Positions 7,152-32,751 of a stretch of 35,536 nucleotides of DNA are shown piece after piece. The stretch is taken from IMG/VR virus record IMGVR_UViG_3300009160_000086, positions 1-35,536 of that record; one strand, 5' to 3'. A program made the position numbers and the translations under genes. A model generated the notes under the pieces. The model was not told the DNA's origin. It worked only from the letters and a program-made list of their open reading frames with translations, and ran no database searches. Origin of the DNA: a virus. The first letter of the stretch is position 1; each line of letters starts with the position of its first letter.

Positions 7152-7922
7152 ATGGCTGCCAAAAAGATTTCCCAACTCGCGCTCGCAACCGGCGTCACGG
7201 GTGCCGACATTTTGCCGATCGTCCAGGGCGGCGTGACGAAACGCGCCCTCGTGTCGAGCCTCGGAGGGATCGGTGCCACTGGACCGACGGGCGCTGCGGG
7301 TGCGGCCGGCAGCGCTGGAGCGGCTGGCGTTACTGGGCCGACTGGAATCGCCGGATCTGCGGGAGCCACGGGCGCGACGGGGGCCGCTGGTGTCGCTGGT
7401 GGCGTCGGTGCCACAGGACCGACAGGTTCCGTCGGTGCAGCATCCACAGTAACCGGCCCTACTGGAGCCCAGGGTGCGGCGTCCACAGTCACCGGCCCCA
7501 CTGGAGCTCAGGGCGCGGTTTCAACTGTTACCGGCCCAACGGGCAGCGTCGGCAGCACCGGACCAAGCGTCACCGGCCCTACTGGTGCCTCGTACACCAA
7601 CGTAGTCACAACGCCATCGGTCCTCACGGCCAACACCACAGTTACCGGCTACAATCCAGGCTCCGGCGACATCTACCGCCTAGCGGTCACGGGCTCGACC
7701 GGCGTCGTAATTCAAAACATGGGCATCACCGGCATCGACGGCGACGCCAAGCTCCTCGTCAACGTCGGAGCCACGGCCCCGATTACCCTCAACCACGCGA
7801 CCGGGCCAAATGCCAACGCTAGGTTCGCGGTGCCGTGGGCCGGGAACTATGTTCTCGACGCCAACGGCGGCGCTGCTTTGATCGTTTACGACTCGACTAG
7901 CCAAGTCTGGAGAGTCGTCTAA
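7152..7922 (+). CDS. collagen-like virion fibre protein 1
   Basis: A 256-residue protein in three parts. Residues 1-38 ([24 protein letters not shown]) resemble the N-terminal anchor seen in many phage fibre and baseplate proteins. Residues about 39-146 are collagen-like Gly-X-Y triplets, mostly GPTG, GATG and GAAG with STVTGPTG blocks, predicting a trimeric triple helix. The C-terminal 110 residues (from about [12 protein letters not shown] to STSQVWRVV) look like a compact beta domain that could serve as trimer cap or receptor binder. Threonine is very frequent in the Y position, as in glycosylated bacterial collagens such as BclA. The stop overlaps the next start by one base. It is probably an accessory fibre on head or tail. 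Confidence 0.85.
7266..7590 (+). repeat. collagen-coding repeats, block 1
   Basis: Imperfect in-frame repeats encode Gly-X-Y triplets. A longer period around STVTGPTG is visible: ACCGGCCC(C/T)ACTGG returns at 7454, 7491 and 7531. Such DNA is prone to slippage and repeat-number change. Confidence 0.8.
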
Positions 7923-9208
7923 TGCCATTCTTCGCGCTACCGAGCGGTGCCTCGCCCGTGCTCGCGGGCAACGCTGCGCCGACTGGTGGCGTAGGTAACG
8001 CTGGCGATCTGTTCATAGATCGCACAAACAAAAAACTTTACGGTCCCAAGGATGCCGTCACTGGGTGGCCGACCGGAATAGATTTGAGCAATGGTCCGAC
8101 GGGGGCCGCGTCCACGGTAACAGGCCCCACAGGCGCTGTTTCTAGCGTGCCTGGACCTACGGGCAGCACTGGCAGCGCTGGCATCACTGGCAGCGTCGGC
8201 GCCACTGGCGCAACGGGCGCAACTGGCGCAGCGTCTAACGTGACGGGGCCTACAGGCAGCACGGGGCCTGCTCCGCTTGTCACTAGCGGGCCGACTGCCA
8301 GCACCGTCTACATCGGCGGCGTCCTTGTGACGGCTGCCCCAGGCCCCACGGGGCCGCAAGGCAACTCGATCACAGGCCCGACCGGCGCCGCGTCAACTGT
8401 CACGGGGCCGACTGGCAGCGTCGGCGCTACGGGCAGCACTGGCGCAGCCTCTACAGTGCCCGGCCCTACTGGCAGCGTCGGCGCAACTGGCGCGACGGGC
8501 GCAGCGTCTAGTGTGACCGGACCTGCTGGCAGCGTTGGCGCCACAGGAAGCGTCGGGCCGGCGGGCGCTGGTGCCACTGGTCCGCGAGGCCAAGGCGGCA
8601 TAGGGTTTGGTGTTGAGACAGTTACGTCGTCAATCATGGCGATCAGCGACGTGCCCGGTGAAGCCGGGACAAACGTAACCAATATCAACTTGTTGCGCGG
8701 CAACACTTACTACATCACGCCTATCTCAATTAGATCCGTGCGCGTGCTCTCGTCTTCAGACGTGGAGCTCACAAACGGCATCACCGTCGAGGCGGGCCTC
8801 GGCAAGACGTTGCAATACGTCGTTCCGATCGCCGCCGCTGCGTCGCAGAAATTGCGGCTATACAACTCGGGCGGCGGCACGGCGAGCACCATTACGCTCA
8901 CAGTTAGCGACCTAGCGCCTACGGGGCCGACGGGCACTGCGTCCACAGTGACAGGCCCCGCCGGCGCCACGGGCAGCACAGGCGCGGCAAGCACCGTGAC
9001 GGGACCAACGGGAAGCGTCGGACCTACTGGTAGCACAGGCGCAGCAAGCACGGTGACGGGGCCTACTGGCAGCGTCGGACCAACGGGCAACGCAGGCGCG
9101 GCAAGCACCGTGACGGGGCCTACCGGCCCAGCCGGCGGCCCAACTGGCAGCACTGGCCCAAGTGGCAGGGCTGGCGCTGGCATCGGACTCATAATCGCCC
9201 TCGGGTAA
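7922..9208 (+). CDS. collagen-like virion fibre protein 2
   Basis: A 428-residue companion of the preceding fibre. The N-terminal 58 residues (DLFIDRTNKKLYGPKDAVTGWPTG) resemble a short beta motif common in phage fibres, where a label such as LYGPK follows a FIDRTN-like strand. Two collagen-like blocks follow, about residues 58-226 and 336-422, separated by a non-collagen beta domain (about 227-335, containing VETVTSSIMAISDVPGEAG and LQYVVPIAAAASQKLRLYNSGGG). The triplets again have Thr in most Y positions. The protein ends just after the second block without a capping domain, so it may pair with other fibre parts. Its ATG overlaps the previous stop, suggesting coupled production. Confidence 0.85.
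   Translation: MPFFALPSGASPVLAGNAAPTGGVGNAGDLFIDRTNKKLYGPKDAVTGWPTGIDLSNGPTGAASTVTGPTGAVSSVPGPTGSTGSAGITGSVGATGATGATGAASNVTGPTGSTGPAPLVTSGPTASTVYIGGVLVTAAPGPTGPQGNSITGPTGAASTVTGPTGSVGATGSTGAASTVPGPTGSVGATGATGAASSVTGPAGSVGATGSVGPAGAGATGPRGQGGIGFGVETVTSSIMAISDVPGEAGTNVTNINLLRGNTYYITPISIRSVRVLSSSDVELTNGITVEAGLGKTLQYVVPIAAAASQKLRLYNSGGGTASTITLTVSDLAPTGPTGTASTVTGPAGATGSTGAASTVTGPTGSVGPTGSTGAASTVTGPTGSVGPTGNAGAASTVTGPTGPAGGPTGSTGPSGRAGAGIGLIIALG
8093..8600 (+). repeat. collagen-coding repeats, block 2
   Basis: In-frame degenerate repeats with units of roughly 11-15 codons around [11 protein letters not shown] and GSVGATGSTG. CCTACTGGCAGCGTCGGCG and its variants recur, with synonymous changes that break up exact identity. 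Confidence 0.8.
8928..9186 (+). repeat. collagen-coding repeats, block 3
   Basis: This is the most regular block. The unit [19 protein letters not shown] is repeated about three times, with near-identical DNA such as AGCACNGTGACGGG(G/A)CC, pointing to recent tandem duplication. Confidence 0.8.
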
Positions 9209-12497: not shown

Positions 12498-12601
12498 CGC
12501 TACTGAGCGAACCTAGCGTCTGGCCCGGTGCGCTACTGCGGCGAGAGACGCCTCCCCCACCCCCTCTAGCCTGAGCTCGGCCACCGGCACAATTGCCGGC
12601 C
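12498..12601. other. intergenic gap before the sugar cassette, with hairpin
   Basis: About 100 bases without a gene. CCGGCA (12584-12589) and TGCCGG (12594-12599) form a 6-pair stem with a 4-base loop two bases before the next ATG, which could limit translation. A C-rich stretch ACCCCCTCT lies at 12559. No clear promoter is seen. Confidence 0.4.
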
Positions 12602-13684
12602 ATGATCGACCACCTCCAGGCCCTCGCCATCCACGCCTACTACGCCGGCGAATTTGACGCCGGCCGCCGGGCCTGCGATCGCCTGCTCTTGATGCCACTC
12701 CCGCCGGAGGTCGAGATGCAAACGCGGTCCAATCGCCTTTGGTATCAACAGCCGCTCGACGAGCTCGTCGACTGCCGCTTTGTGCGGATCGACGTTGAGC
12801 CCGCTCACGATGGCTGGAGCCTGTTTAACCCGTCCATCCTCGCCCACGGCGACGAGCTCCTCGTATGGGTGCGATCCTCAAACTACCGCATCGTCGAGGG
12901 CCGCTACGAGATGCCTCCGGCGGACGGCGGCATCATCCGCACCGAGGGCCTGCTCGCACGCTACACGGCCGACCTCACGCTCCGCGACTGCCGCGGCGTC
13001 CGCAGGCCCGACTACCCGACCACCGGCTACCCAGTCGACGGCCTTGAGGACTGCCGCCTCCGCCATACCCAAACGGGGATAGGCGTGTCGGCCACGATCC
13101 GCAACGCCGCCCCCTACGACGGCCGCTGCCGCATCGCGACGGCAACGCTTGACGTATGTCACGCAAGCCTTGACGGCCTGGTCGTGCTCGATTCGCTCTC
13201 GACTCAAGAGCACGAAAAGAACTGGATGCCGCTAGAGGGCGGCCCGCACGCCGGAGGCTGGCTCTACGCCGCTAGCCACCGCGGGCACGTCGTGACGGTC
13301 GACGGTGACCCGAGCCTCGCCGGGGCCTACCTCATGCACCAGCGCGGCCCGGCTCCGCTGATCGCGAAAGAGTTCCGGGGCGGCGGCCAAGCGATCGCCT
13401 TCCGCGACGGCTACCTGGCCGTGATCCACGAGGTGGCCGCCATCGGCGACAGGAGGGCCTACGAGCACCGGCTCCTCTGGCTCGACAATTCGTTAACTCT
13501 GCGGCGCATGTCGCAGCCGTTCGCATTCCGCGAGCCGCGGGCGATCGAGTTTGCGGCCGGGCTCGCCGCCATGGGCGACCGGATCGTCGTGAGCTTCGGC
13601 GTGCGTGACGCCGAGGCGTGGCTCGTCGAGATTGCCGCCGGCCATGTAGAGGAGATGCTAAATGCCATCCCTGTTTCGCACTAA
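12602..13684 (+). CDS. GH130-like five-bladed beta-propeller protein
   Basis: A 360-residue protein probably acting on or binding glycans. The first 50 residues are a TPR-like helix pair (YYAGEFDAGRRACDRLL, then TRSNRLWY) of the kind fused to glycosyltransferases. The rest follows the GH130/GH43-like propeller pattern: WSLFNPSIL at 73-80, VRSSNYRIVEGRYEMP at 90-105, the acidic GLEDCRL at 147-153, EKNWMP at 205-210 and GGGQAIAF later. GH130 enzymes phosphorolyse mannosides, but I cannot confirm a catalytic acid here, so lectin-like or transferase-partner roles remain. It overlaps the methyltransferase gene by 23 bases, which supports one cassette. The start at 12602 follows a hairpin and has no good Shine-Dalgarno. 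Confidence 0.7.
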   Translation: MIDHLQALAIHAYYAGEFDAGRRACDRLLLMPLPPEVEMQTRSNRLWYQQPLDELVDCRFVRIDVEPAHDGWSLFNPSILAHGDELLVWVRSSNYRIVEGRYEMPPADGGIIRTEGLLARYTADLTLRDCRGVRRPDYPTTGYPVDGLEDCRLRHTQTGIGVSATIRNAAPYDGRCRIATATLDVCHASLDGLVVLDSLSTQEHEKNWMPLEGGPHAGGWLYAASHRGHVVTVDGDPSLAGAYLMHQRGPAPLIAKEFRGGGQAIAFRDGYLAVIHEVAAIGDRRAYEHRLLWLDNSLTLRRMSQPFAFREPRAIEFAAGLAAMGDRIVVSFGVRDAEAWLVEIAAGHVEEMLNAIPVSH

Positions 13685-14210
13685 GGTCTCCAAGGCCCTC
13701 GCCGACGCTTGGCGGCCGCACGACTGGTTTGAGCTCAACCAAGCGGTCGAAAATCACTACGTCCATAAGGCGAGCGTCTGCGCCGAAGTGCGACCCAAAC
13801 GGGTGATTGAAATCGGCACGCGGTGCGGCTATTCGCTGGTCGCGTTTGCGATAGCGGCCCCCGAGGCCCGCTACCTGTGCCTCGACGGGGCGACCGACTC
13901 CGACTCGTTTGACTGCCTCGCCCACTGGGCGAGTGTGGTCGAGCGGTGGGTGATCGACGCGAGCCTCGTCGTCGTCGACACCAAGCACGTCCGCAGCCTG
14001 CCGCCGGCGGACTTCGCCCACGTTGACGGCGACCACAGTTTCGGCGGTGCCCTCCGCGATCTGCGGCTCGTCTCGCACTGCAAAACCATACTCGCCGACG
14101 ATTGCTGCAATCCCGAGGTCAAACGAGCGGTCGTGCAGTTCGCGGCCGAGCGTCACCGCCGCGTCGACTGGCATCACGACGGGCTCAGGGAGAGTGCCGT
14201 CCTCACATGA
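13662..14210 (+). CDS. class I SAM-dependent methyltransferase-like protein
   Basis: A 182-residue protein with a Rossmann-type methyltransferase core. Motif I is VIEIGTRCGYS (48-58), followed by the acidic end of strand 2 in YLCLDG (71-76). FAHVDGDHSFGGALRDL (118-134) and KTILADDCC (141-149) match the Methyltransf_24 pattern, whose members often act on sugars or small metabolites. GAGGAG lies seven bases before the ATG. It starts inside the propeller gene and its stop overlaps the ATG of the glycosyltransferase, so the three are translated as a unit. A plausible substrate is the glycan made by its neighbour; this is inference from context. Confidence 0.78.
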   Translation: MPSLFRTKVSKALADAWRPHDWFELNQAVENHYVHKASVCAEVRPKRVIEIGTRCGYSLVAFAIAAPEARYLCLDGATDSDSFDCLAHWASVVERWVIDASLVVVDTKHVRSLPPADFAHVDGDHSFGGALRDLRLVSHCKTILADDCCNPEVKRAVVQFAAERHRRVDWHHDGLRESAVLT

Positions 14211-15262
14211 AAATCGGCATCTACGCGCTCGCGAAAAACGAGATCAAGCACGCGGCCGCCTGGGCCGAATCCTGCCTCGAGGCCGACGTTCGCGTTGTGA
14301 CCGACACCGGCTCAACCGATGGCACCGTCGAGGCCCTAGAGGCTGCCGGCGTGACGGTGGCCCGTGGCTACGTCTGCCCCTGGAGATGGGACGACGCCCA
14401 CAACCTATCGCTCAACCACCTGCCGCCAGACCTCGACGTTGCCATCCGGCTCGACCTCGACGAGCGGATCCAGCCCGGCTGGCGGGAGGCAGTCGAGCGG
14501 GCGTGGGCGGACGGCGTCAACAACCTTCGGTATCACTACGTCTGGTCGTGGGCGCCAGACGGCTCTGAGGGGCTGACGTTTCACTGTGATCGCGTCCACG
14601 CCCGCCGGGGATTCCGCTGGGCACAGGCGACCCACGAGGGGCTAATTTGCTGGAGCGGCGACAAGGTGCAGGCTTTTGCCGAAGGGCTCCAGATCCACCA
14701 CCACCGCGACGCCGGCAAGAAGCACGTCACCGACTTGACGCTCCTAGAGGTGGCGGTCCGCGAGGCTCCGCACGACGCTCGAGCCCAGTGGTATCTCGCC
14801 CGCGAGCTCGACTACGCCGGTCGGCCCGAGGCGGCCGACGCCTTCCGCCATTACCTGACGATGCCGGGTGGCACGGCCACCGAGCGGAGTTACGCCGAGC
14901 GGTCGCTCTACCGGCTCACGGGCGACGAGCAACACCTTCACAACGCCGTCAAGGAGGCCCCCGGCGAGCCCGACGGGTGGGAGCGGCTGGCGTGGGTGAA
15001 CTACCAACGCCGCGAGTGGCGAAACGTGGCCGGCTTCGCACGGCAGGCGACCGTAGCCGATTGGCCGGGCACGCATTGCACCGACCCGCAGGCACCGACG
15101 AAGGCACTCGATCTGCTCGCGGTCGCCCTCTGGGAGCTCGGCAGTCGGACAGACGCCCTACATCATGCAAGGCAGGCTGCGGCAAGATGGCCGGAAGACG
15201 AGCGGCTCGCCAACAACGTGGCCGCGATGGAACGCATCCTCGCCCAAGGGGCCGCCGCGTGA
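14207..15262 (+). CDS. GT2-family glycosyltransferase with C-terminal TPR region
   Basis: A 351-residue predicted glycosyltransferase. The GT-A fold is shown by YALAKNE (6-12), VTDTGSTDGT (31-40), RWDDAHNLSLN and the metal-binding DLD at residues 83-85. About residues 170-345 are helical repeats of TPR type (ARAQWYLARELDYAGRPEAADAF, LAVALWELGSRTDALHHARQAAARWPEDERLANN). TPR-bearing GT2 enzymes include protein O- and S-glycosyltransferases, such as the SPbeta prophage enzyme SunS, so a protein acceptor is plausible. There is no membrane segment, so it would act in the cytoplasm, before virion assembly ends. The start is the ATG overlapping the methyltransferase stop; its own stop overlaps the next GTG. 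Confidence 0.88.
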   Translation: MKIGIYALAKNEIKHAAAWAESCLEADVRVVTDTGSTDGTVEALEAAGVTVARGYVCPWRWDDAHNLSLNHLPPDLDVAIRLDLDERIQPGWREAVERAWADGVNNLRYHYVWSWAPDGSEGLTFHCDRVHARRGFRWAQATHEGLICWSGDKVQAFAEGLQIHHHRDAGKKHVTDLTLLEVAVREAPHDARAQWYLARELDYAGRPEAADAFRHYLTMPGGTATERSYAERSLYRLTGDEQHLHNAVKEAPGEPDGWERLAWVNYQRREWRNVAGFARQATVADWPGTHCTDPQAPTKALDLLAVALWELGSRTDALHHARQAAARWPEDERLANNVAAMERILAQGAAA

Positions 15263-16530: not shown

Positions 16531-16854
16531 GTGGCTATCACACTCGGGAAAGACGTGACGATCACCGGCTTGACCGGCGCCCGATCCGTCTCCGTCACAA
16601 ACTCTGCCGCCGAGGTCGACGTGACCAAGTTTGGCGACACCGCTCGCAAGTTCAAAAAGGCCATGATCGAGCAGACCGTCGAGGTCGAGTGCGTCGATGA
16701 CCCCGGCATTGCCGCTGGCGCGACGTTCACGCTCGGCGGTTCGAGCACTGGCAACACGATTGAGTTCATCGTGACCAGCGTGGCCCGATCGGAGCCGATC
16801 GACGGAATCGCGACCTACACCGTGAGCGCCTCGCGCGCCGCCGTTCAAACCTGA
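16531..16854 (+). CDS. tail-tube-like protein, copy 1 of 3
   Basis: First of three adjacent paralogues that all begin AITLGKD and end in an IDG-ATYTV-type strand. The 107-residue product (GARSVSVTNSAAEVDVTKFGDTARKF, EFIVTSVARSEPIDGIATYTVSASR) has the small beta-sandwich pattern of siphophage tail-tube proteins: early paired strands with E(V/I)DVT, and a final TYTV strand. AGGAGG sits five to six bases before the GTG start, the best ribosome site of the three, consistent with a major virion protein. Position before the gpG-like chaperone matches lambda V. Which copy forms the tube is not decided by sequence. Confidence 0.75.
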   Translation: MAITLGKDVTITGLTGARSVSVTNSAAEVDVTKFGDTARKFKKAMIEQTVEVECVDDPGIAAGATFTLGGSSTGNTIEFIVTSVARSEPIDGIATYTVSASRAAVQT

Positions 16855-16873
16855 CCCTAAGGAATTACAAACC

Positions 16874-17194
16874 ATGGCAATTACGCTAGGCAAAGACGCC
16901 GCCGCCCCTCCGTTTGGCACCGACATCATCTCGGCAAGCTACACCGAGGAATGCGAAGTCATCGACGTGACCAACCGCACCAACAAGGGCGGCACGGCAG
17001 GCAACCCTGGCTATCGCGCCAACGCTGCCGGCTTCAAGACCAAGACGTGGGAGATTGAGTGTCACGACGCCACGGGGCTGATCACGGCCCTCCAAAGCAA
17101 CACGGCGACGAGCGGTTTCATCGTGATGAGCGTCGCGGAAAACATCTCGATCGACGGGGCGGTGACGTTCACCGTGACCGCACGGGAGACCTGA
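16874..17194 (+). CDS. tail-tube-like protein, copy 2 of 3
   Basis: The middle paralogue, 106 residues, begins AITLGKDAAAPPFGTDIISAS and keeps ECEVIDVTNRTNKGG and IDGAVTFTVTARE. The central region is shortened and diverged compared with copies 1 and 3 (EIECHDATGLITALQSN instead of the usual V-E strand and loop). AAGGA lies nine bases before the ATG. The gap to copy 1 is 19 bases and to copy 3 four bases. It may form an alternative tube ring, a tube-tip initiator or a decorating ring. The shared ends and conserved D-V-T strand show common descent. Confidence 0.7.
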   Translation: MAITLGKDAAAPPFGTDIISASYTEECEVIDVTNRTNKGGTAGNPGYRANAAGFKTKTWEIECHDATGLITALQSNTATSGFIVMSVAENISIDGAVTFTVTARET

Positions 17195-17198
17195 GCCC

Positions 17199-17558
17199 GT
17201 GGCGATCACGCTGGGGAAGGACTGCTCGATTTCGATCGGTGGCAACATTGCCAGCGCCCGGAACGTCAGCCTTTCCTACAGCGTCCGAACGATCGACGTG
17301 GAGGAATACGGCAGCCGCGAGGCTGCCGTCTATCCCGTGGGTGTCGAGGCCACCGTGTCCGTCGAGTTCAACGACGCCGCCGATCTAGGCGGCGTCTACG
17401 GCATGGTAACGGCCGGCACGCCGATCACCGTCTCGGGTGGTGCCGGGTCGTGGTCGTTCTTGGGCGTGATCACAAGCATCTCTGAAACTGATCCGATCGA
17501 CGGCGTCGCGACCTACACGGTCGAGGCCCGTCTCACCCGTGCTGGACTGAGGACGTAA
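17199..17558 (+). CDS. tail-tube-like protein, copy 3 of 3
   Basis: The third paralogue, 119 residues, begins AITLGKDCSISIGG and contains RNVSLSYSVRTIDVEEYGSREAAVY and ETDPIDGVATYTVEARLTR. It is the longest copy and keeps the clearest tube-like middle (VSVEFNDAADLGGVYGMVTAGTPITVSGG). The GTG start lies four bases after the copy 2 stop. No strong Shine-Dalgarno is present, so it may depend on coupling. Its stop overlaps the ATG of the tail chaperone by one base. With copies 1 and 2 it could form a hetero-ring or serve a distinct part of the tail. Confidence 0.72.
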   Translation: MAITLGKDCSISIGGNIASARNVSLSYSVRTIDVEEYGSREAAVYPVGVEATVSVEFNDAADLGGVYGMVTAGTPITVSGGAGSWSFLGVITSISETDPIDGVATYTVEARLTRAGLRT

Positions 17559-25074: not shown

Positions 25075-26037
25075 ATGGGGCGCATGACCGCCCCCTTTCG
25101 CGCCGCCCTCGCTAACGCCCTCGACTCCCCGCCGTGGATCCTGCCCGCCGTCCGCGAGCTCCGCGGGATCGTCATCCCGGCAGGCGGCGAGCTCTACGGC
25201 CGACTCGCCTGGAACCTCGTCACCACGCTCCGCGGCCTCGGCTGCACGCTGCCCGTTGAGATTTGGCATCTGGCCGACGAGATGCCCGACGATATGGCCG
25301 CCGTGTTCACCGATGCCGGCTGCCGCCTGGTCGACGCCGACGCCACGCTTGCCCGACTCGGCATCCGCCCCCGCACCGTCGAGGCCGAGATCGGCCGCGG
25401 CCGCGGCTGGTGGCTCAAGGCGATCGCCGTCCGCCACACCGGCTTTGCCGAGGTGCTCCTCCTCGACGCCGACAACGTGCCAGCCCGCGACCCGACGTAC
25501 CTGTTCCACGACCGTGCCTACACGCGGCCAGGTGCGTTGTTCTGGCCTGACCTCCCGCCGGCCGGCAACCGCTCCGAGTGGGTGCCGGAGGCGGCGTGGC
25601 GAAACGTGGGGCTCGCGCCCGTCTACGGGGCTCGCCCGCTCGAGAGCGGGCAACTCATGGTCGACCGCCGACGCCACCTGCACGCACTTGACCTGTGTGT
25701 TTTGCTGAATGAATGGCGCGACCACGTCTACCAGTTCGTCTACGGCGACAAGGACACATGGCTCCTCGCCTGGCACCTCGCCGGCAGCGAGTACGGCATT
25801 CCGAAACGCAACCCGGCGTATCGGCACCCGGCGATCTGCCAGCACGACCCAGCGGGCGAGCTCGTGTTCCAGCACGCCTGCAACGGCAAGGACGATCTCG
25901 CCGCCGGGAAGGTGATCGCGGGAATCGTCTCGCGGCGGTTTGCACCGGATGCCGCGGCGAGTTTCGCCGAAAAGCGGCGCCGCGTGCGAGAGAAACAGGC
26001 TTTTGTGATTCCGCCGCCGTCGGGCATCGTGGACTGA
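25075..26037 (+). CDS. Mnn2-like (GT71) glycosyltransferase
   Basis: A 320-residue predicted glycosyltransferase of the alpha-mannosyltransferase family (Mannosyl_trans3) known from fungal Mnn1/Mnn2 and from some bacteria and viruses. Matching motifs run in order: GIVIPAGGELYGRLAWNLVTTLR (31-53), GCTLPVEIWHLADEMP (56-71), GWWLKAIAV (111-119), LLLDADNVPARDPTYLF (128-144) with the DxD-type DAD at 131-133, GALFWPDLP, LESGQLMVD and GDKDTWLLAW. No signal peptide or membrane anchor is visible, unlike the Golgi enzymes, so it should be cytoplasmic. ATG 25075 or ATG 25084 could start it. It returns to high GC after the AT-rich tip gene. Its stop overlaps the zincin gene. It could modify a virion or host-surface glycan. 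Confidence 0.86.
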   Translation: MGRMTAPFRAALANALDSPPWILPAVRELRGIVIPAGGELYGRLAWNLVTTLRGLGCTLPVEIWHLADEMPDDMAAVFTDAGCRLVDADATLARLGIRPRTVEAEIGRGRGWWLKAIAVRHTGFAEVLLLDADNVPARDPTYLFHDRAYTRPGALFWPDLPPAGNRSEWVPEAAWRNVGLAPVYGARPLESGQLMVDRRRHLHALDLCVLLNEWRDHVYQFVYGDKDTWLLAWHLAGSEYGIPKRNPAYRHPAICQHDPAGELVFQHACNGKDDLAAGKVIAGIVSRRFAPDAAASFAEKRRRVREKQAFVIPPPSGIVD

Positions 26038-26318
26038 TGCGACGACGACGCCGCACGATCTACATCGGCGACCAGCGATGGAAGATTCAGCGAGACAAGC
26101 GGCTCGCAGGAAAGTACGGCGAGTGCGACTACGGAGCCAAGACGATCCGCCTCTGCTCATCGCTCACAGGATTTGACAGCCTCGGCACGCTGATACACGA
26201 AGTCCTTCACGCCCGCCTTCCAGACCTTTCCGAAGAGGTTGTCGCGGACTTGGAGGAAACGCTCATCACGCTGATCGAGGCCGAGGGATTCCGGCACGCC
26301 GACGACCACGAGGATTGA
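26037..26318 (+). CDS. minimal HExxH zincin, SprT-like
   Basis: A 93-residue predicted metalloprotease. HEVLH at residues 54-58 is the zinc-binding motif, preceded by TLI and followed eight residues later by SEE (E66, E67), where SprT-type and related zincins place a third ligand or helper. The N-terminus, RRRRRTIYIGDQRWKIQRDKRLAGKYGECDYGAKTIRL, is a strand pattern often found in such compact phage zincins. The length is short compared with SprT (about 165), so it may be a stripped-down enzyme. The ATG overlaps the stop of the sugar gene (TGATG). Possible targets are repair or virion proteins. Confidence 0.78.
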   Translation: MRRRRRTIYIGDQRWKIQRDKRLAGKYGECDYGAKTIRLCSSLTGFDSLGTLIHEVLHARLPDLSEEVVADLEETLITLIEAEGFRHADDHED

Positions 26319-28544: not shown

Positions 28545-29078
28545 ATGGCCGACACCGTCACCGACGCACTCACCGGCTCGCTGCGGACCACGCTCGCGTG
28601 GAACCGCACCGACACGCAAGAGGTCGGGACGGTGGTCAACCGCCGCACAGCGAGCGGCTCCTACACGATCACCGACGGCGACGGCCCCGGCGAGGCGGAC
28701 CTCGTGTTTGCCGACCAACGGACGATCCCAGCCAACTCGGTCGAGACGTTTGACCTATTGAACCTGTCTCAACAGGCGCTCGGCGTTACGGTGCCGTTTG
28801 TGTTTCGCCAGTTGCGGGTGATCCGCGTCGTCAACGAGTCAACAACGCCCGGCCGCCGGCTCCTAGTCGGCGTTGATCCCGGCCGCCCGACCGCCGTCTA
28901 CGCCGCCGAGGTCGGGCCGGGCTCCGAATGGTGTGCGGTCAATCAGACCGACGCTTGGGTCGTGACGGCCGCCAACTCGATCGTCCGCATCAGCAACCCG
29001 AATGCGGCAGCGGTCACCTATTCGCTGTTCTTAATCGGCACCTCTACGGCAGCGCCGGGGAGCGGCAGTGGCAGCTAG
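28545..29078 (+). CDS. beta-rich structural-type protein, paralogue A
   Basis: This 177-residue protein has an N-terminal strand pair (SLRTTLAWNRTDTQEVGTV, YTITDGDGPGEADLVF) followed by SVETFDLLNL, LRVIRVVNESTTPGRRLLVGVD and a closing IVRISNPNAAAVTYSLFLIG. The architecture is shared with the next gene: a TDG strand, DL-x-NL, a V(I/L)VN strand, then GP(G/E)..., and a final I-G strand. Such small sandwich proteins are often virion or fibre components. The start is directly after the stop of the preceding gene. It has no signal or enzymatic motif. The location among lysis and envelope genes rather than tail genes is notable. Confidence 0.62.
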   Translation: MADTVTDALTGSLRTTLAWNRTDTQEVGTVVNRRTASGSYTITDGDGPGEADLVFADQRTIPANSVETFDLLNLSQQALGVTVPFVFRQLRVIRVVNESTTPGRRLLVGVDPGRPTAVYAAEVGPGSEWCAVNQTDAWVVTAANSIVRISNPNAAAVTYSLFLIGTSTAAPGSGSGS

Positions 29079-29565
29079 TTTCTCACTCGCCGGAACGCTG
29101 CGCGTTGTGCCCACCTGGGTCGACGAGCTCTCGACGACCGCCCTCACCGATTCGGTGACGGCCTTGATTCCGTTCACGCTCACAGACGGCACGGGCAGCG
29201 GCAACGCAAACGGCTACTACAAGGACGTGATCACGATCGCGGCCGGCGCCACGGCCAACGTCGACCTCCGAGCCCTGCCGCTCGTGTTCATGGGCGGGTC
29301 GGGCACGCTCTCGCTCGCGAGCGTCAAGCTGCTCCTCATCGTCAACCGCTCGGCGACTGCCAGCCTCTCGGCCGGCGTCAGCGTCACCAACCGCTGGACG
29401 CCCCTGTCGGCGTCGTCGATCGCCATCGGCCCCGAGGGCGTGCTCTACACGACGCACCTCGGCACGGGCCTCGCGACAACCACCACCAACAAGGTGCTCG
29501 CCATCACGAACAACGGGGCCGCCGCGGCCGATCTCGAAATCTACATCGTCGGAGTCCAGGCATGA
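29068..29565 (+). CDS. beta-rich structural-type protein, paralogue B
   Basis: A 165-residue companion of the previous gene. It keeps FTLTDGTGSGNANGYYKDVITI, VDLRALPLVF, KLLLIVNRSATASLSAGV, SIAIGPEGVLYTTHLG and the ending VLAITNNGAAAADLEIYIVG. The last two match paralogue A's VRISNPNAAAVTYSLFLIG. The GTG start lies inside the upstream gene, so the pair is translated together, and its stop overlaps the next ATG. Divergence between copies is large, meaning an old duplication. Role unknown; virion decoration or a fibre tip is likely from the fold pattern. Confidence 0.62.
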   Translation: MAASFSLAGTLRVVPTWVDELSTTALTDSVTALIPFTLTDGTGSGNANGYYKDVITIAAGATANVDLRALPLVFMGGSGTLSLASVKLLLIVNRSATASLSAGVSVTNRWTPLSASSIAIGPEGVLYTTHLGTGLATTTTNKVLAITNNGAAAADLEIYIVGVQA

Positions 29566-29936
29566 TTTCATCAGCACCCATCGCCGCTACGACCGACCTC
29601 TTTTCACTCGCCGACAAGGTGCGAGCGTTCGTGGCTGCCGCCAAGAGCGCGGCCGCTGGTGGCGTCACGGTCTCGGAGTTTGCCGAGCTCACCGTGTCGC
29701 TCCTCAAGATCGCCATGGCCGCAGCCGACGCGATCCCGGTCGACGGGGCCGACCGCAAGGTCTTCGTTTTGAACGCCGTCGCGCTGCTCTTTGACAACGT
29801 CGCCGACAAGTGCATTCCGTTTGCGGCGTGGCCCGTCTGGCTGATCGTCCGACCAGCCGCACGCCAACTGCTCCTCCTCGTCGCCTCGGGTGCGATTGAG
29901 TCCCTGTTGCCGCTGGTCAGAAAGGCCGCCGCATGA
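29562..29936 (+). CDS. small helical protein, candidate holin-associated
   Basis: A 124-residue protein opening a run of four overlapping small genes before the papain-like enzyme. It has a helical N-terminal half (LADKVRAFVAAAKSAAAGGVTVSEFAELTVSLLKIAMAAADAI), then KVFVLNAVALLFDNVADKCIPFAAWPVWLIVRPAARQLLLLVASGAIESLLPLVRKAA. The second half has moderate hydrophobic stretches that could enter a membrane. Helix pattern and context fit phage holin-like or host-envelope proteins, yet no classical holin motif is present. The ATG overlaps the previous stop (ATGA) and its own stop overlaps the next ATG. Confidence 0.5.
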   Translation: MISSAPIAATTDLFSLADKVRAFVAAAKSAAAGGVTVSEFAELTVSLLKIAMAAADAIPVDGADRKVFVLNAVALLFDNVADKCIPFAAWPVWLIVRPAARQLLLLVASGAIESLLPLVRKAAA

Positions 29937-30187
29937 TTTATGTCGCTTTGCTGGGGGCTGCCGCCGCCCTGCTCTTTGGTCCGTCCGCGTGGAAGGCCCG
30001 GCCCGTGATCCTAGGGCCGTCGGAGGCGGCGACGAAGCCGCCGCACCTCGCCCCGACCTACCAATCGGCTATCGCCGACCTGGCCCACGTCCGCCTCCGC
30101 CTGGTGCAGACGAAGGCGCTCGACGAGACGGCCAAGAAGGCGATCGACACGCTCACTCTGGCCCTCGTGGCCGGGAGCGACGCATGA
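29933..30187 (+). CDS. small N-terminally anchored protein, spanin/holin candidate
   Basis: The 84-residue product begins with a hydrophobic segment, MIYVALLGAAAALLFGPSAW, that can act as a membrane anchor or signal, and continues as an amphipathic, coiled-coil-like helix (SAIADLAHVRLRLVQTKALDETAKKAIDTLTLALV). A single N-terminal anchor plus periplasmic helix is the plan of inner-membrane spanins, though holins also have short anchors. There is no lipobox. Start and stop both overlap neighbours by four bases, so it is strictly coupled. Function rests on topology and context only. Confidence 0.5.
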   Translation: MIYVALLGAAAALLFGPSAWKARPVILGPSEAATKPPHLAPTYQSAIADLAHVRLRLVQTKALDETAKKAIDTLTLALVAGSDA

Positions 30188-30645
30188 GCGACCGCACACG
30201 CTACACGCTCGCGGCCTGCCTTGTGGCCGGCAGCATGCTTGCCTGGATGCTCGAGGGCCGCAGCGGCCCTACGCCGGCCCCGCAGCCCGACGGCGGGCTC
30301 TCGATGCGTGGGTTGTTCATCGGGCCAGAGGCGGCCGCTGACGCCGCCAAGCTCGCGGCCCTCTGCGACGAGCTCGCCGAGTGCATCCAGGCCGACGGCG
30401 ATCGCGAGGGCGGGCCGCGATTGAAATCCGGCGTGGCGTTTGACGACCTCCGCGTCGCTGCCCGCGAGGCCCGGCTCCGCGGCGACTCCATTGGCGCCCG
30501 CCAGCCGCACGCCAAGAAAGCAATTCACGACTATCTCGACAAGGCCGTCGGCACCTCGGGCGGGCCGGTCGGGCCAGAGGAGCGGTCGAAGTGGGTGGCG
30601 GCCTACCGCGAGCTTGGGAGGGCGTGCGCCGATGCGGCACGATGA
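30184..30645 (+). CDS. membrane-anchored or exported protein, 153 aa
   Basis: The ATG 30184 overlaps the previous stop; an earlier frame start at 29890 lies inside two other genes and is rejected. The first 25 residues (RTRYTLAACLVAGSMLAWMLEG) form a signal or anchor, followed by a Pro-rich spacer (PTPAPQPDGG) and a helical domain with KLAALCDELAECIQADGD, VAFDDLRVAAREARLRG and EERSKWVAAYRELGRACADAA. The anchor-spacer-helix layout again resembles envelope-acting phage proteins. It overlaps the peptidase gene by 14 bases and probably works with it. No known family was recognised. Confidence 0.6.
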   Translation: MSDRTRYTLAACLVAGSMLAWMLEGRSGPTPAPQPDGGLSMRGLFIGPEAAADAAKLAALCDELAECIQADGDREGGPRLKSGVAFDDLRVAAREARLRGDSIGARQPHAKKAIHDYLDKAVGTSGGPVGPEERSKWVAAYRELGRACADAAR

Positions 30646-31750
30646 GCCCTACCGCTCGTGGCGGATCGTCGCCGCTGCGGTGCTCCTGTTTATCGCGGCG
30701 GTGATCGCGGCCCGCTCATGGGTGACGCTAGAGCAAAACGTCGGCGGGCGGTTTGGGTACACGCCGGATCCAGAGGGGGCTCGCGCCTTTCTTGCCGAGC
30801 TCGGCGACGAGCGTTTCTTCTCACAGGCCGCCCCCGAGGCGATGCAAAAGGCTGCCGGCCGCGACACGTTTCTCTACCGGGCCATGCAACGCGCCCACCA
30901 GGCCCGTTACGGCAAGCCCTTCGTGGTCGGTAAGCAACTCAACGGGTCGTGCGTCGCGTGGGGTGCAATGCACGCGGTCTGGATAGCCGAGGCGATCGAC
31001 TGGGAACTAGGCAAGGCGAGCGAGCCGCCCCTCGCCCCGAGCACCGAAGCGATCTACGGCGGGAGCCGCTGCGAAGCCAGGGGCAAGACGTTTGCGGGAT
31101 GGTCAGACGGGTCCACCGGATTTGCCGCGGCCAAATGGTTGCGAGAGTGGGGCGTTGTGTACCGCAAACAATACGCGGGCGTCGACCTCACGACGTACGA
31201 CGCCAAGCTCGAAAAAGATTGGGGAGCCTACGGGTGCGGAGGCCAGGCCGACGGCGGCAAGATGGACGCCGAGGCCAAGCGGCACCCGTGCCGGCACGTC
31301 GTGGCCGTCCGAAATTGGGCCGAGCTCACGGCCGCGATCGAGGCGGGCTTTCCGGTGACGCTGGCAAGCTCGCAGGGCTTTTCCTCAACGCTCGGCCCGA
31401 GCGGCATCGCCGAGGCTCAAGGCACATGGATGCACCAGATGGTAGCGGTCGGCGTCCGCTACAAGGCCAACGGTGCGCCCGACGATCTGATCGCGATCCT
31501 CAACTCTTGGGGGCCGAATTGGATCGGCCCGCAGACCAACCGCTACCCCGACGACTTTCCGGCCGGCGCCTTCTGGGCACGCCGCCGCGTCGTCGAGGGA
31601 ATGCTCGGCGACGCTTGGGCCATCGGCTCCGTCGAGACCGGGTTCAAGTGGCGCGACATCCACCACGGCGACTGGCTCGCGCCGGCCGTCGACACGCTCA
31701 CGCGGCTCCCGATCCGCAATCCGTTCCTCGATTTCCAGTTGGGGCTATAG
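30632..31750 (+). CDS. membrane-anchored papain-like (C1 family) cysteine peptidase
   Basis: A 372-residue protein. Residues 11-28 (RIVAAAVLLFIAAVIAAR) form an N-terminal membrane anchor or uncleaved signal. The papain catalytic set is in the right order: Q102 and C107 in QLNGSCVAWG, H268 in GTWMHQMVAVGVRY, and N291 in LNSWGPNWIG, the last strongly papain-like. IYGGSRCEARGK and YGCGGQADGG add Cys/Gly loops like those near papain subsites. Papain-fold enzymes cleave peptide bonds; here the substrate may be envelope peptides, host proteins or virion parts. It lies last in a run of small membrane proteins, the position of an endolysin, but murein activity is unproven. GC and codons match its neighbours. 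Confidence 0.84.
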   Translation: MRHDEPYRSWRIVAAAVLLFIAAVIAARSWVTLEQNVGGRFGYTPDPEGARAFLAELGDERFFSQAAPEAMQKAAGRDTFLYRAMQRAHQARYGKPFVVGKQLNGSCVAWGAMHAVWIAEAIDWELGKASEPPLAPSTEAIYGGSRCEARGKTFAGWSDGSTGFAAAKWLREWGVVYRKQYAGVDLTTYDAKLEKDWGAYGCGGQADGGKMDAEAKRHPCRHVVAVRNWAELTAAIEAGFPVTLASSQGFSSTLGPSGIAEAQGTWMHQMVAVGVRYKANGAPDDLIAILNSWGPNWIGPQTNRYPDDFPAGAFWARRRVVEGMLGDAWAIGSVETGFKWRDIHHGDWLAPAVDTLTRLPIRNPFLDFQLGL

Positions 31751-32011
31751 ATGACGTTCACAAATCGCCAACTCGTGATCCTGTGTCTTGCTTGCATGGC
31801 CGCCGGCTGGTGGCTGTCGAGCTCGCCGGCCTCGCCCGTCAACCCGAGGCCGCAGCCCGACCGCCCGGTCATTCGGTGGATCGCCCGCGCCGCCAAGTCG
31901 TTCCTATGGATTGCCCTGGTGGCAGAGAAGCCACCTGAGGATTCGCACCTCGTACACGCCCGCGTTGGCGACGACGGCCAGCCGCTCCTTGACCACTCCC
32001 GAGGCTGGTAG
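31751..32011 (+). CDS. small Trp-rich exported or membrane protein
   Basis: This 86-residue protein starts immediately after the peptidase stop. It has a signal-like N-terminus (NRQLVILCLACMAAGWWLSSSPA), a Pro-rich stretch, a second hydrophobic piece WIARAAKSFLWIALVAEKPP and the end HARVGDDGQPLLDHSRGW. I recall proteins of this shape in planctomycete prophages, though I cannot name a role. Two hydrophobic parts could span or lie on the membrane. Its place after the peptidase suggests lysis or envelope function. Confidence 0.58.
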   Translation: MTFTNRQLVILCLACMAAGWWLSSSPASPVNPRPQPDRPVIRWIARAAKSFLWIALVAEKPPEDSHLVHARVGDDGQPLLDHSRGW

Positions 32012-32013
32012 CC

Positions 32014-32349
32014 ATGTGGCGTCAACTGATCGCATTCCTCGCCAGCCTGGCGGCAGAGCCCGCCGCGATCGACCAAGAGCAACCCCGCGCCGCTGCGGCC
32101 GTGGCGGTCGCCTACGCCGGGCTTGCGGTCGAGGCCCCCGCCCCTGCCCCGACGCCGGCCCCCGGCAAGTGCTGCTCCGACTGCGGCGGCAAGGGCTACA
32201 TCGTCCACGGCGACGGCCATCGGACGCCGTGCCCGTGCCCGGCGTCGTGCCCGTGCAAGAAGGGGGCCGGGTGCCCCGATGGCAAATGCGGCGTAGCGGG
32301 AGCGTCGCCCGCGACGGTTCTACCGGCCAAGCCTGCGGGCGGGAGGTGA
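32014..32349 (+). CDS. small Cys-rich protein with DnaJ-like zinc motif
   Basis: A 111-residue protein with a hydrophobic start (WRQLIAFLASLAAEPA), an Ala/Pro linker (VEAPAPAPTPAPGK) and a compact Cys cluster: CCSDCGGKGYI...CPCPASCPCKKGAGCPDGKC. CSDCGGKGYI follows the CxxCxGxG zinc-finger repeat of DnaJ chaperones. Ten Cys in about 40 residues imply zinc or disulfides. The start follows two bases after the previous stop. It may be an exported metal-binding peptide that works with the peptidase; I have not seen a specific function for it. Confidence 0.6.
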   Translation: MWRQLIAFLASLAAEPAAIDQEQPRAAAAVAVAYAGLAVEAPAPAPTPAPGKCCSDCGGKGYIVHGDGHRTPCPCPASCPCKKGAGCPDGKCGVAGASPATVLPAKPAGGR

Positions 32350-32352
32350 CTG

Positions 32353-32751
32353 GTGGGCGACGCTCTCGACACGCTGACGCTGGAGGGGCTGCGGGCGACC
32401 GTCCGCGAGTTCATCGGCCCGTCGGGTGCCACGCTAGAACACACATGCGACGTGATCGTTGACGAGATTTGCCGGCAGTGGCCGGAGCGAACCATGGCCG
32501 ACTACGCTCGCAAGCTCGACTCCAACGCCGTCGGGACGAAGGTGCTCGACGCGATCCCGGTGATCACGGCCAGAGTCCGCGAGCAGATCGAAGCCCGGTG
32601 GGGGATCAAGCCCAGCCATACCGCAGCGCTCGACCTCGTGCTCCGCGGCTGTGTGATCGAGTACGCGAACCTGTGGTTTGCGTCGCCGACAAATCGCATC
32701 GCCATGCGGTCGATCATTGCGGTCGTGCGGCACGCGCGGCGTCCTGGTTGA
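32353..32751 (+). CDS. helical protein of unknown function, 132 aa
   Basis: The GTG start lies three bases after the preceding stop. The product is mainly helical and basic at the C-terminus: LEGLRATVREFIGPSGATLEHTCDVIVDEICRQWPERTMADYARKLDSN, then VITARVREQIEARWGIKPSHTAALDLVLRGCVIEYANLWFASPTNRIAMRSIIAVVRHAR. No zinc site, Walker motif or membrane segment is found. It could be a DNA-binding or structural protein; the sequence does not allow a better call. Confidence 0.52.
   Translation: MGDALDTLTLEGLRATVREFIGPSGATLEHTCDVIVDEICRQWPERTMADYARKLDSNAVGTKVLDAIPVITARVREQIEARWGIKPSHTAALDLVLRGCVIEYANLWFASPTNRIAMRSIIAVVRHARRPG

Follow-up and report, generated by a model that had tools for sequence, protein, structure and literature searches.

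A membrane-anchored peptidase preceded by small overlapping genes and followed by two further small genes, at 29562-32349 of IMG/VR record IMGVR_UViG_3300009160_000086, raises the question of what such an enzyme does late in a virus infection. The record was analyzed over its full 35,536 nucleotides (the window). A first-pass annotation, made from the letters alone, had proposed an unusual lysis solution fitting a host with an atypical cell wall. The layout of the cassette, the fold of the peptidase, the distribution of the module and the complement of lysis genes were compared with this proposal.

Layout of the cassette

Six plus-strand genes (A, B, C, the peptidase, D and E; Table 1) are packed directly 3' of the tail genes, in the late operon. 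The A/B and B/C overlaps are 4 nt each, C and the start of the peptidase overlap by 14 nt, and the downstream gaps are 0-2 nt. Four overlapping small genes had been described as leading into the peptidase; three do so (A, B and C), and the fourth overlap lies between A and the gene before it, whose stop shares 4 nt with the start of A. A scan for promoters and terminators gave nothing informative.

Table 1. Coordinates of the cassette genes, their neighbors and the alternative protease module
Feature	Position	Strand	Description
Gene before cassette (G2)	29068..29565	+	Paralogue of 28545-29078, PHROG 22694; context, not core
Gene A	29562..29936	+	124 aa; C-terminal half amphipathic/hydrophobic
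Gene B	29933..30187	+	84 aa; N-terminal TM, then short periplasmic tail (predicted); optional
Gene C	30184..30645	+	153 aa; N-terminal anchor helix, then helical bundle
Papain-like peptidase	30632..31750	+	372 aa; TM about 9-27; Q102, C107, H268, N291; NSWG motif
Gene D	31751..32011	+	86 aa; N-terminal hydrophobic segment and second amphipathic segment
Gene E	32014..32349	+	111 aa; exported (predicted); 9 Cys
Gene F	32353..32751	+	132 aa; usually 3' of E
Alternative module	L272:6277-9149		
Alternative module	L273:10507-13318		
Alternative module	L276:15079-18232		
Alternative module	L288:5727-8880		
Alternative module	L298:10177-13414		

N-terminal anchors, previously noted in several of the small genes, were scored utilizing a simple hydropathy scan with a threshold. 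The hydrophobic segment was strong in B and the peptidase and weak in C and D; A had none above threshold. Gene A, which the alternative protease module described below also retains, is a candidate holin-like or membrane partner. An AlphaFold2 model of C (pLDDT 90) gave a confident helical bundle behind the anchor, and a fold search with it returned no significant match. A lipoprotein occupies the C position only in the distant relatives L154, L160 and L161, and L158 has a coiled-coil N-anchored protein. B and C gave no match in a comparison with two-component spanins (Rz/Rz1), and A-D include no homologue of a known holin or spanin. The C-terminal motif of D, ending ..DHxxGW, is conserved. 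A GlsB/YeaQ-type small membrane protein lies beside the peptidase in some relatives (L080:11126-11353, L100:5196-5435, L118:11349-11609); it is polytopic, and its Transgly_assoc match exceeded the cut-off only in G006.

Gene E carries a Zn-knuckle-like CxxCxGxG cluster and a CPDGKC motif; its Cys residues number nine where ten had been counted. The window protein has the Cys cluster only and no thioredoxin domain (CxxC). Thioredoxin matches were obtained in relatives L047, L155 and L160, and in Blastopirellula marina and relatives a thioredoxin with WCPYC takes the place of E. In L155 a single protein combines lipobox, Cys cluster and thioredoxin, a Cys-cluster lipoprotein adjoins a thioredoxin gene in L160, and in the alternative module an E-type Zn-knuckle is fused to a trypsin-like protease. 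The common denominator of these variants would be a redox or metal role next to a thiol protease. Gene F was located 3' of E in 80 of 143 loci and probably lies outside the envelope module.

Four further observations concern the window outside the cassette. A small SprT-like / DUF6782 metallopeptidase candidate (HEVLHA) is encoded in another part of the late region, at 26037-26318. The tail region includes two adjoining collagen-like proteins with a GPTG repeat (7152-9208). Three tandem, tail-tube-like paralogues starting (M/V)AITLGKD lie at 16531-17558. Carbohydrate-type enzyme, methyltransferase-like and glycosyltransferase-like genes are set among structural genes at 12593-15262.

The peptidase and the search for lysis genes

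As a single sequence the peptidase gave no match to Pfam, PHROG or PDB sequences, and a profile and a structure were required to place the family. A profile from 22 relatives matched cathepsins weakly (E 0.05). The curated cut-off of Pfam Peptidase_C1 (PF00112) was not reached: one of the 22 members gave E 0.029 and the window protein gave no match. An AlphaFold2 model was generated with pLDDT 82 and pTM 0.79, and Foldseek searches of solved structures with this model returned xylellain as best match (E 4.5e-12) followed by cathepsins, within an E range of 1e-12 to 1e-6. Q102, C107 and H268 were invariant in 126/126 aligned sequences and N291 was retained in 123, the three exceptions having Gln. 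The Gln-Cys-His-Asn set is in the order of papain family C1 (clan CA). From the predicted model, the Foldseek matches and this near-invariant quartet, the peptidase is assigned as a papain-type enzyme whose sequence lies beyond the reach of the Pfam C1 model. The open reading frames, coordinates and catalytic set of the first-pass annotation were reproduced, and its description of a membrane-anchored, papain-type peptidase is supported; the enzyme lies in a late-operon cassette whose other small products are exported or membrane-bound. In a comparison with SAR endolysins, the TM segment at 9-27 was seen to be Ala-rich in the hydropathy scan, and no muralytic domain was recognised.

Typical endolysins, spanins and holins had been described as not recognised anywhere in the window. 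Searches of the cluster genes against Pfam and PHROG likewise recognised no family of these three types. One of two findings named in advance as counting against lysis by the peptidase was a conventional endolysin encoded outside the window, in the missing part. Relative G002 is 95% identical at the peptidase, is circularly complete by an end overlap at E/F and covers the missing 9 kb. When the G002 genes were scanned together with the window-specific ones, the 25 Pfam families with the most matching members included none of endolysin, holin or spanin type, and the idea of an endolysin hidden in the missing 9 kb was rejected, none being recognisable in G002 at the sensitivity used. The same result was obtained for G001 and for six further records, the six-record scan covering the best 25 of 36 families, with the rest weaker than 4e-7. 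Amidase_2, Phage_lysozyme, Peptidase_M23 and Peptidase_M15_3 were each found in 0 of 26 records, with working controls. A literature search on lysis genes of planctomycete phages found nothing on point. The early region of G002 also encodes a CsrA-like regulator (L134:3920-4210; Pfam E 2e-19).

Distribution, transfer and hosts

Relatives of the peptidase in viral contigs numbered 43 by sequence and were found in at least 540 IMG/VR stretches by profile; tblastn of 50,697 annotated phage records gave no peptidase match. Homologues counted per locus in an iterated profile search were 122 for A, 42 for B, 133 for C, 119 for D and 114 for E, and the order A-(B)-C-peptidase-D-E was unbroken in 142/142 loci. 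The peptidase and genes A to F, seven genes in all, were under purifying selection, with dN/dS of about 0.07-0.38 in three comparisons. The purifying selection, the homologues of A, C, D and E and the unbroken order mark the cluster as more than a chance grouping. This is a genuine, widespread module without a counterpart in the annotated phage records and PHROGs that were searched.

The cassette is kept, with peptidases 41-60% identical, in G001, G012, the B. marina prophage, G350 and several other records. No counterpart of the window TerL, portal, capsid or tape-measure was detectable in these records, some of which are partial. By these sequence comparisons the module has been transferred between phage types with unrelated head and tail genes. 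In the HK97-type phage G012 it is located between the prohead protease and the capsid gene, and in B. marina it lies ahead of the terminase genes.

Exchange at the G012-type slot was analyzed in 26 capsid-region loci that were terminase-related to G012 and had both flanking genes present. Twenty hold A-C-peptidase-D-E; the other six keep A and lack C, the peptidase, D and E. Five of these six were examined gene by gene (Table 1) and contain small anchored proteins, a 289-aa protein and an exported fusion of a Zn-knuckle with a trypsin-like protease (Pfam Trypsin_2, E 2.7e-23). The GDSGG motif of the trypsin-like protease was found just 3' of the 289-aa gene in 22 of 23 loci. One protease module has therefore been exchanged for another beside a shared membrane-protein candidate, A. 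The 289-aa protein has invariant Q76, C82, H234 and D252 and appears papain-like by eye; membership of the papain family is not claimed, as the profile does not relate it to the peptidase and no solved structure matches it. It gave no match in 392 planctomycete genomes. The peptidase was present in 4/4 window-type records of at least 39 kb, and the slot was filled by one or other protease module in all ten G012-type records of at least 29 kb.

Matches in genomes were to Blastopirellula marina DSM 3645, a Planctomycetaceae MAG and one MAG without assignment, and a phylum-wide search matched 10 of 392 planctomycete genomes. The host genomes named for these relatives of the window contig are planctomycetes. 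In two planctomycete genomes a compact cassette lies among apparently chromosomal genes (L160:9453-11906, L161:9554-11880), encoding a 2-TM protein, a C-like lipoprotein and a TM-less peptidase, with the Cys-cluster lipoprotein and thioredoxin also present in L160. This cassette is possibly a remnant prophage, a gene-transfer agent or a domesticated module.

The atypical wall anticipated for the host is in keeping with these planctomycete genomes, the envelope of the phylum being unusual (PMC3035269, PMC10632474). It is reported to be rich in Cys and Pro, with a disulfide-stabilised protein wall (PMC3035269). Planctomycetes do have peptidoglycan (PMC4432640). Most of the peptidoglycan-synthesis genes tested in P. 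limnophila were non-essential, and the essential set includes a Cys-rich YTV-domain protein (PMC10632474). A protease with a thiol partner would plausibly suit a disulfide-stabilised protein wall.

Role of the module and comparison with known systems

The cluster is probably a late envelope-degrading (lysis) module. Lysis is the most economical role, since the slot was always filled in the long records checked, the products are envelope-directed and the searches revealed no other lysis gene. Overlapping late genes, anchors and an enzyme occur together, as read from the sequence in comparison with phage lysis cassettes. Several findings count against lysis: the position between prohead protease and capsid in the HK97-type module is not classical for it, A-D lack homology to known holins and spanins, and B and the peptidase alone have strong TM segments. 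Since planctomycetes have peptidoglycan (PMC4432640), a muralytic enzyme that went unrecognised could also exist.

In the proposed mechanism A and the small anchored B, C and D would act at or across the inner membrane, in permeabilisation, control or linkage. The N-terminal signal-anchor would insert the peptidase with its catalytic domain outside the cytoplasm, where it would cut peptide bonds of the host envelope as infection ends. E would contribute metal or thiol-disulfide chemistry, which may loosen envelope protein joined by disulfides or may keep the catalytic Cys reduced. The outcome would be lysis, with envelope protein rather than peptidoglycan peptides as the main substrate. More tentatively, these phages may dismantle a disulfide-stabilised protein wall, without peptidoglycan hydrolysis, through an anchored papain-type or trypsin-type protease and a Cys-rich or thioredoxin partner.

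The role in lysis could be the same with the papain-fold enzyme acting as a peptidoglycan endopeptidase, comparable to CHAP and NlpC/P60 lysins or the cysteine-protease domains of mycobacteriophage LysA. The papain fold is widespread among phage lysins (PMC10318531, PMC3314691), planctomycete peptidoglycan exists (PMC4432640), and the BFVD fold matches of the peptidase include proteins annotated as N-acetylmuramidase and peptidoglycan-binding. The closest folds, however, are protein-cleaving C1 enzymes and not CHAP or NlpC, no cell-wall-binding domain was seen, the trypsin-like protease of the alternative module is a protein cutter, and the tested peptidoglycan-synthesis genes of P. limnophila are mostly dispensable (PMC10632474), which together make this substrate rather unlikely.

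Two further explanations place the module outside lysis. The anchored protease could be a late moron that alters the host surface or shaves receptors, in superinfection exclusion or lysogenic conversion; this would fit its membrane anchoring and a mobile module whose place in the genome differs, one phage type having it between the prohead protease and capsid genes. Morons are usually optional, whereas one or other protease module fills the slot in all records of adequate length from the two phage types checked; with the late-operon placement and no other lysis gene found in the searches made, a moron is considered unlikely. A head- or tail-associated virion or maturation peptidase, for assembly or entry, is less probable still; a virion component without lytic effect was the other finding that the first-pass annotation had named against its proposal. 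The module adjoins head genes in HK97-type relatives and lies 3' of tail genes in the window, but those HK97-type genomes already carry an S78-type prohead protease or a protease-capsid fusion, several module members have N-terminal signal-anchors or lipoboxes, and the module is retained across unrelated head and tail types.

If a proteolytic lysis module is confirmed, what the phage must cut would show what holds the planctomycete cell together; whether peptidoglycan or protein is the load-bearing layer in planctomycetes has been debated for decades. The peptidase family is also a large one (at least 540 IMG/VR stretches), although the annotated phage records and PHROGs searched do not contain it.

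Among known systems, papain family C1 (xylellain of Xylella, cathepsins B/L) has the same fold, the Gln/Cys/His/Asn order, NSWG and an N-terminal extension before the catalytic domain. The window peptidase differs in falling below Pfam Peptidase_C1 recognition, in its single-pass anchor and in being a phage late-module gene. Mycobacteriophage LysA N4 and N5 (PMC3314691) likewise combine a papain-like domain, a phage lysis context and an unusual envelope; their domain lies within a multidomain peptidoglycan lysin with amidase or muramidase, whereas the window enzyme is stand-alone and anchored. CHAP, NlpC/P60 and Amidase_5 phage lysins have the broad papain-like superfamily and the lysis context in common with the window enzyme, which is C1-like, with Asn as third residue and a cathepsin-like topology, lacks a binding domain and is missed by those models. 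Lambdoid holin/SAR-endolysin/spanin cassettes are also compact, overlapping late genes in which small membrane proteins accompany an N-anchored enzyme, and the placement before terminase genes in B. marina adds to the likeness. In contrast to these cassettes, the window module is without holin, spanin or muralytic homology and has an extra Cys-rich or thioredoxin partner.
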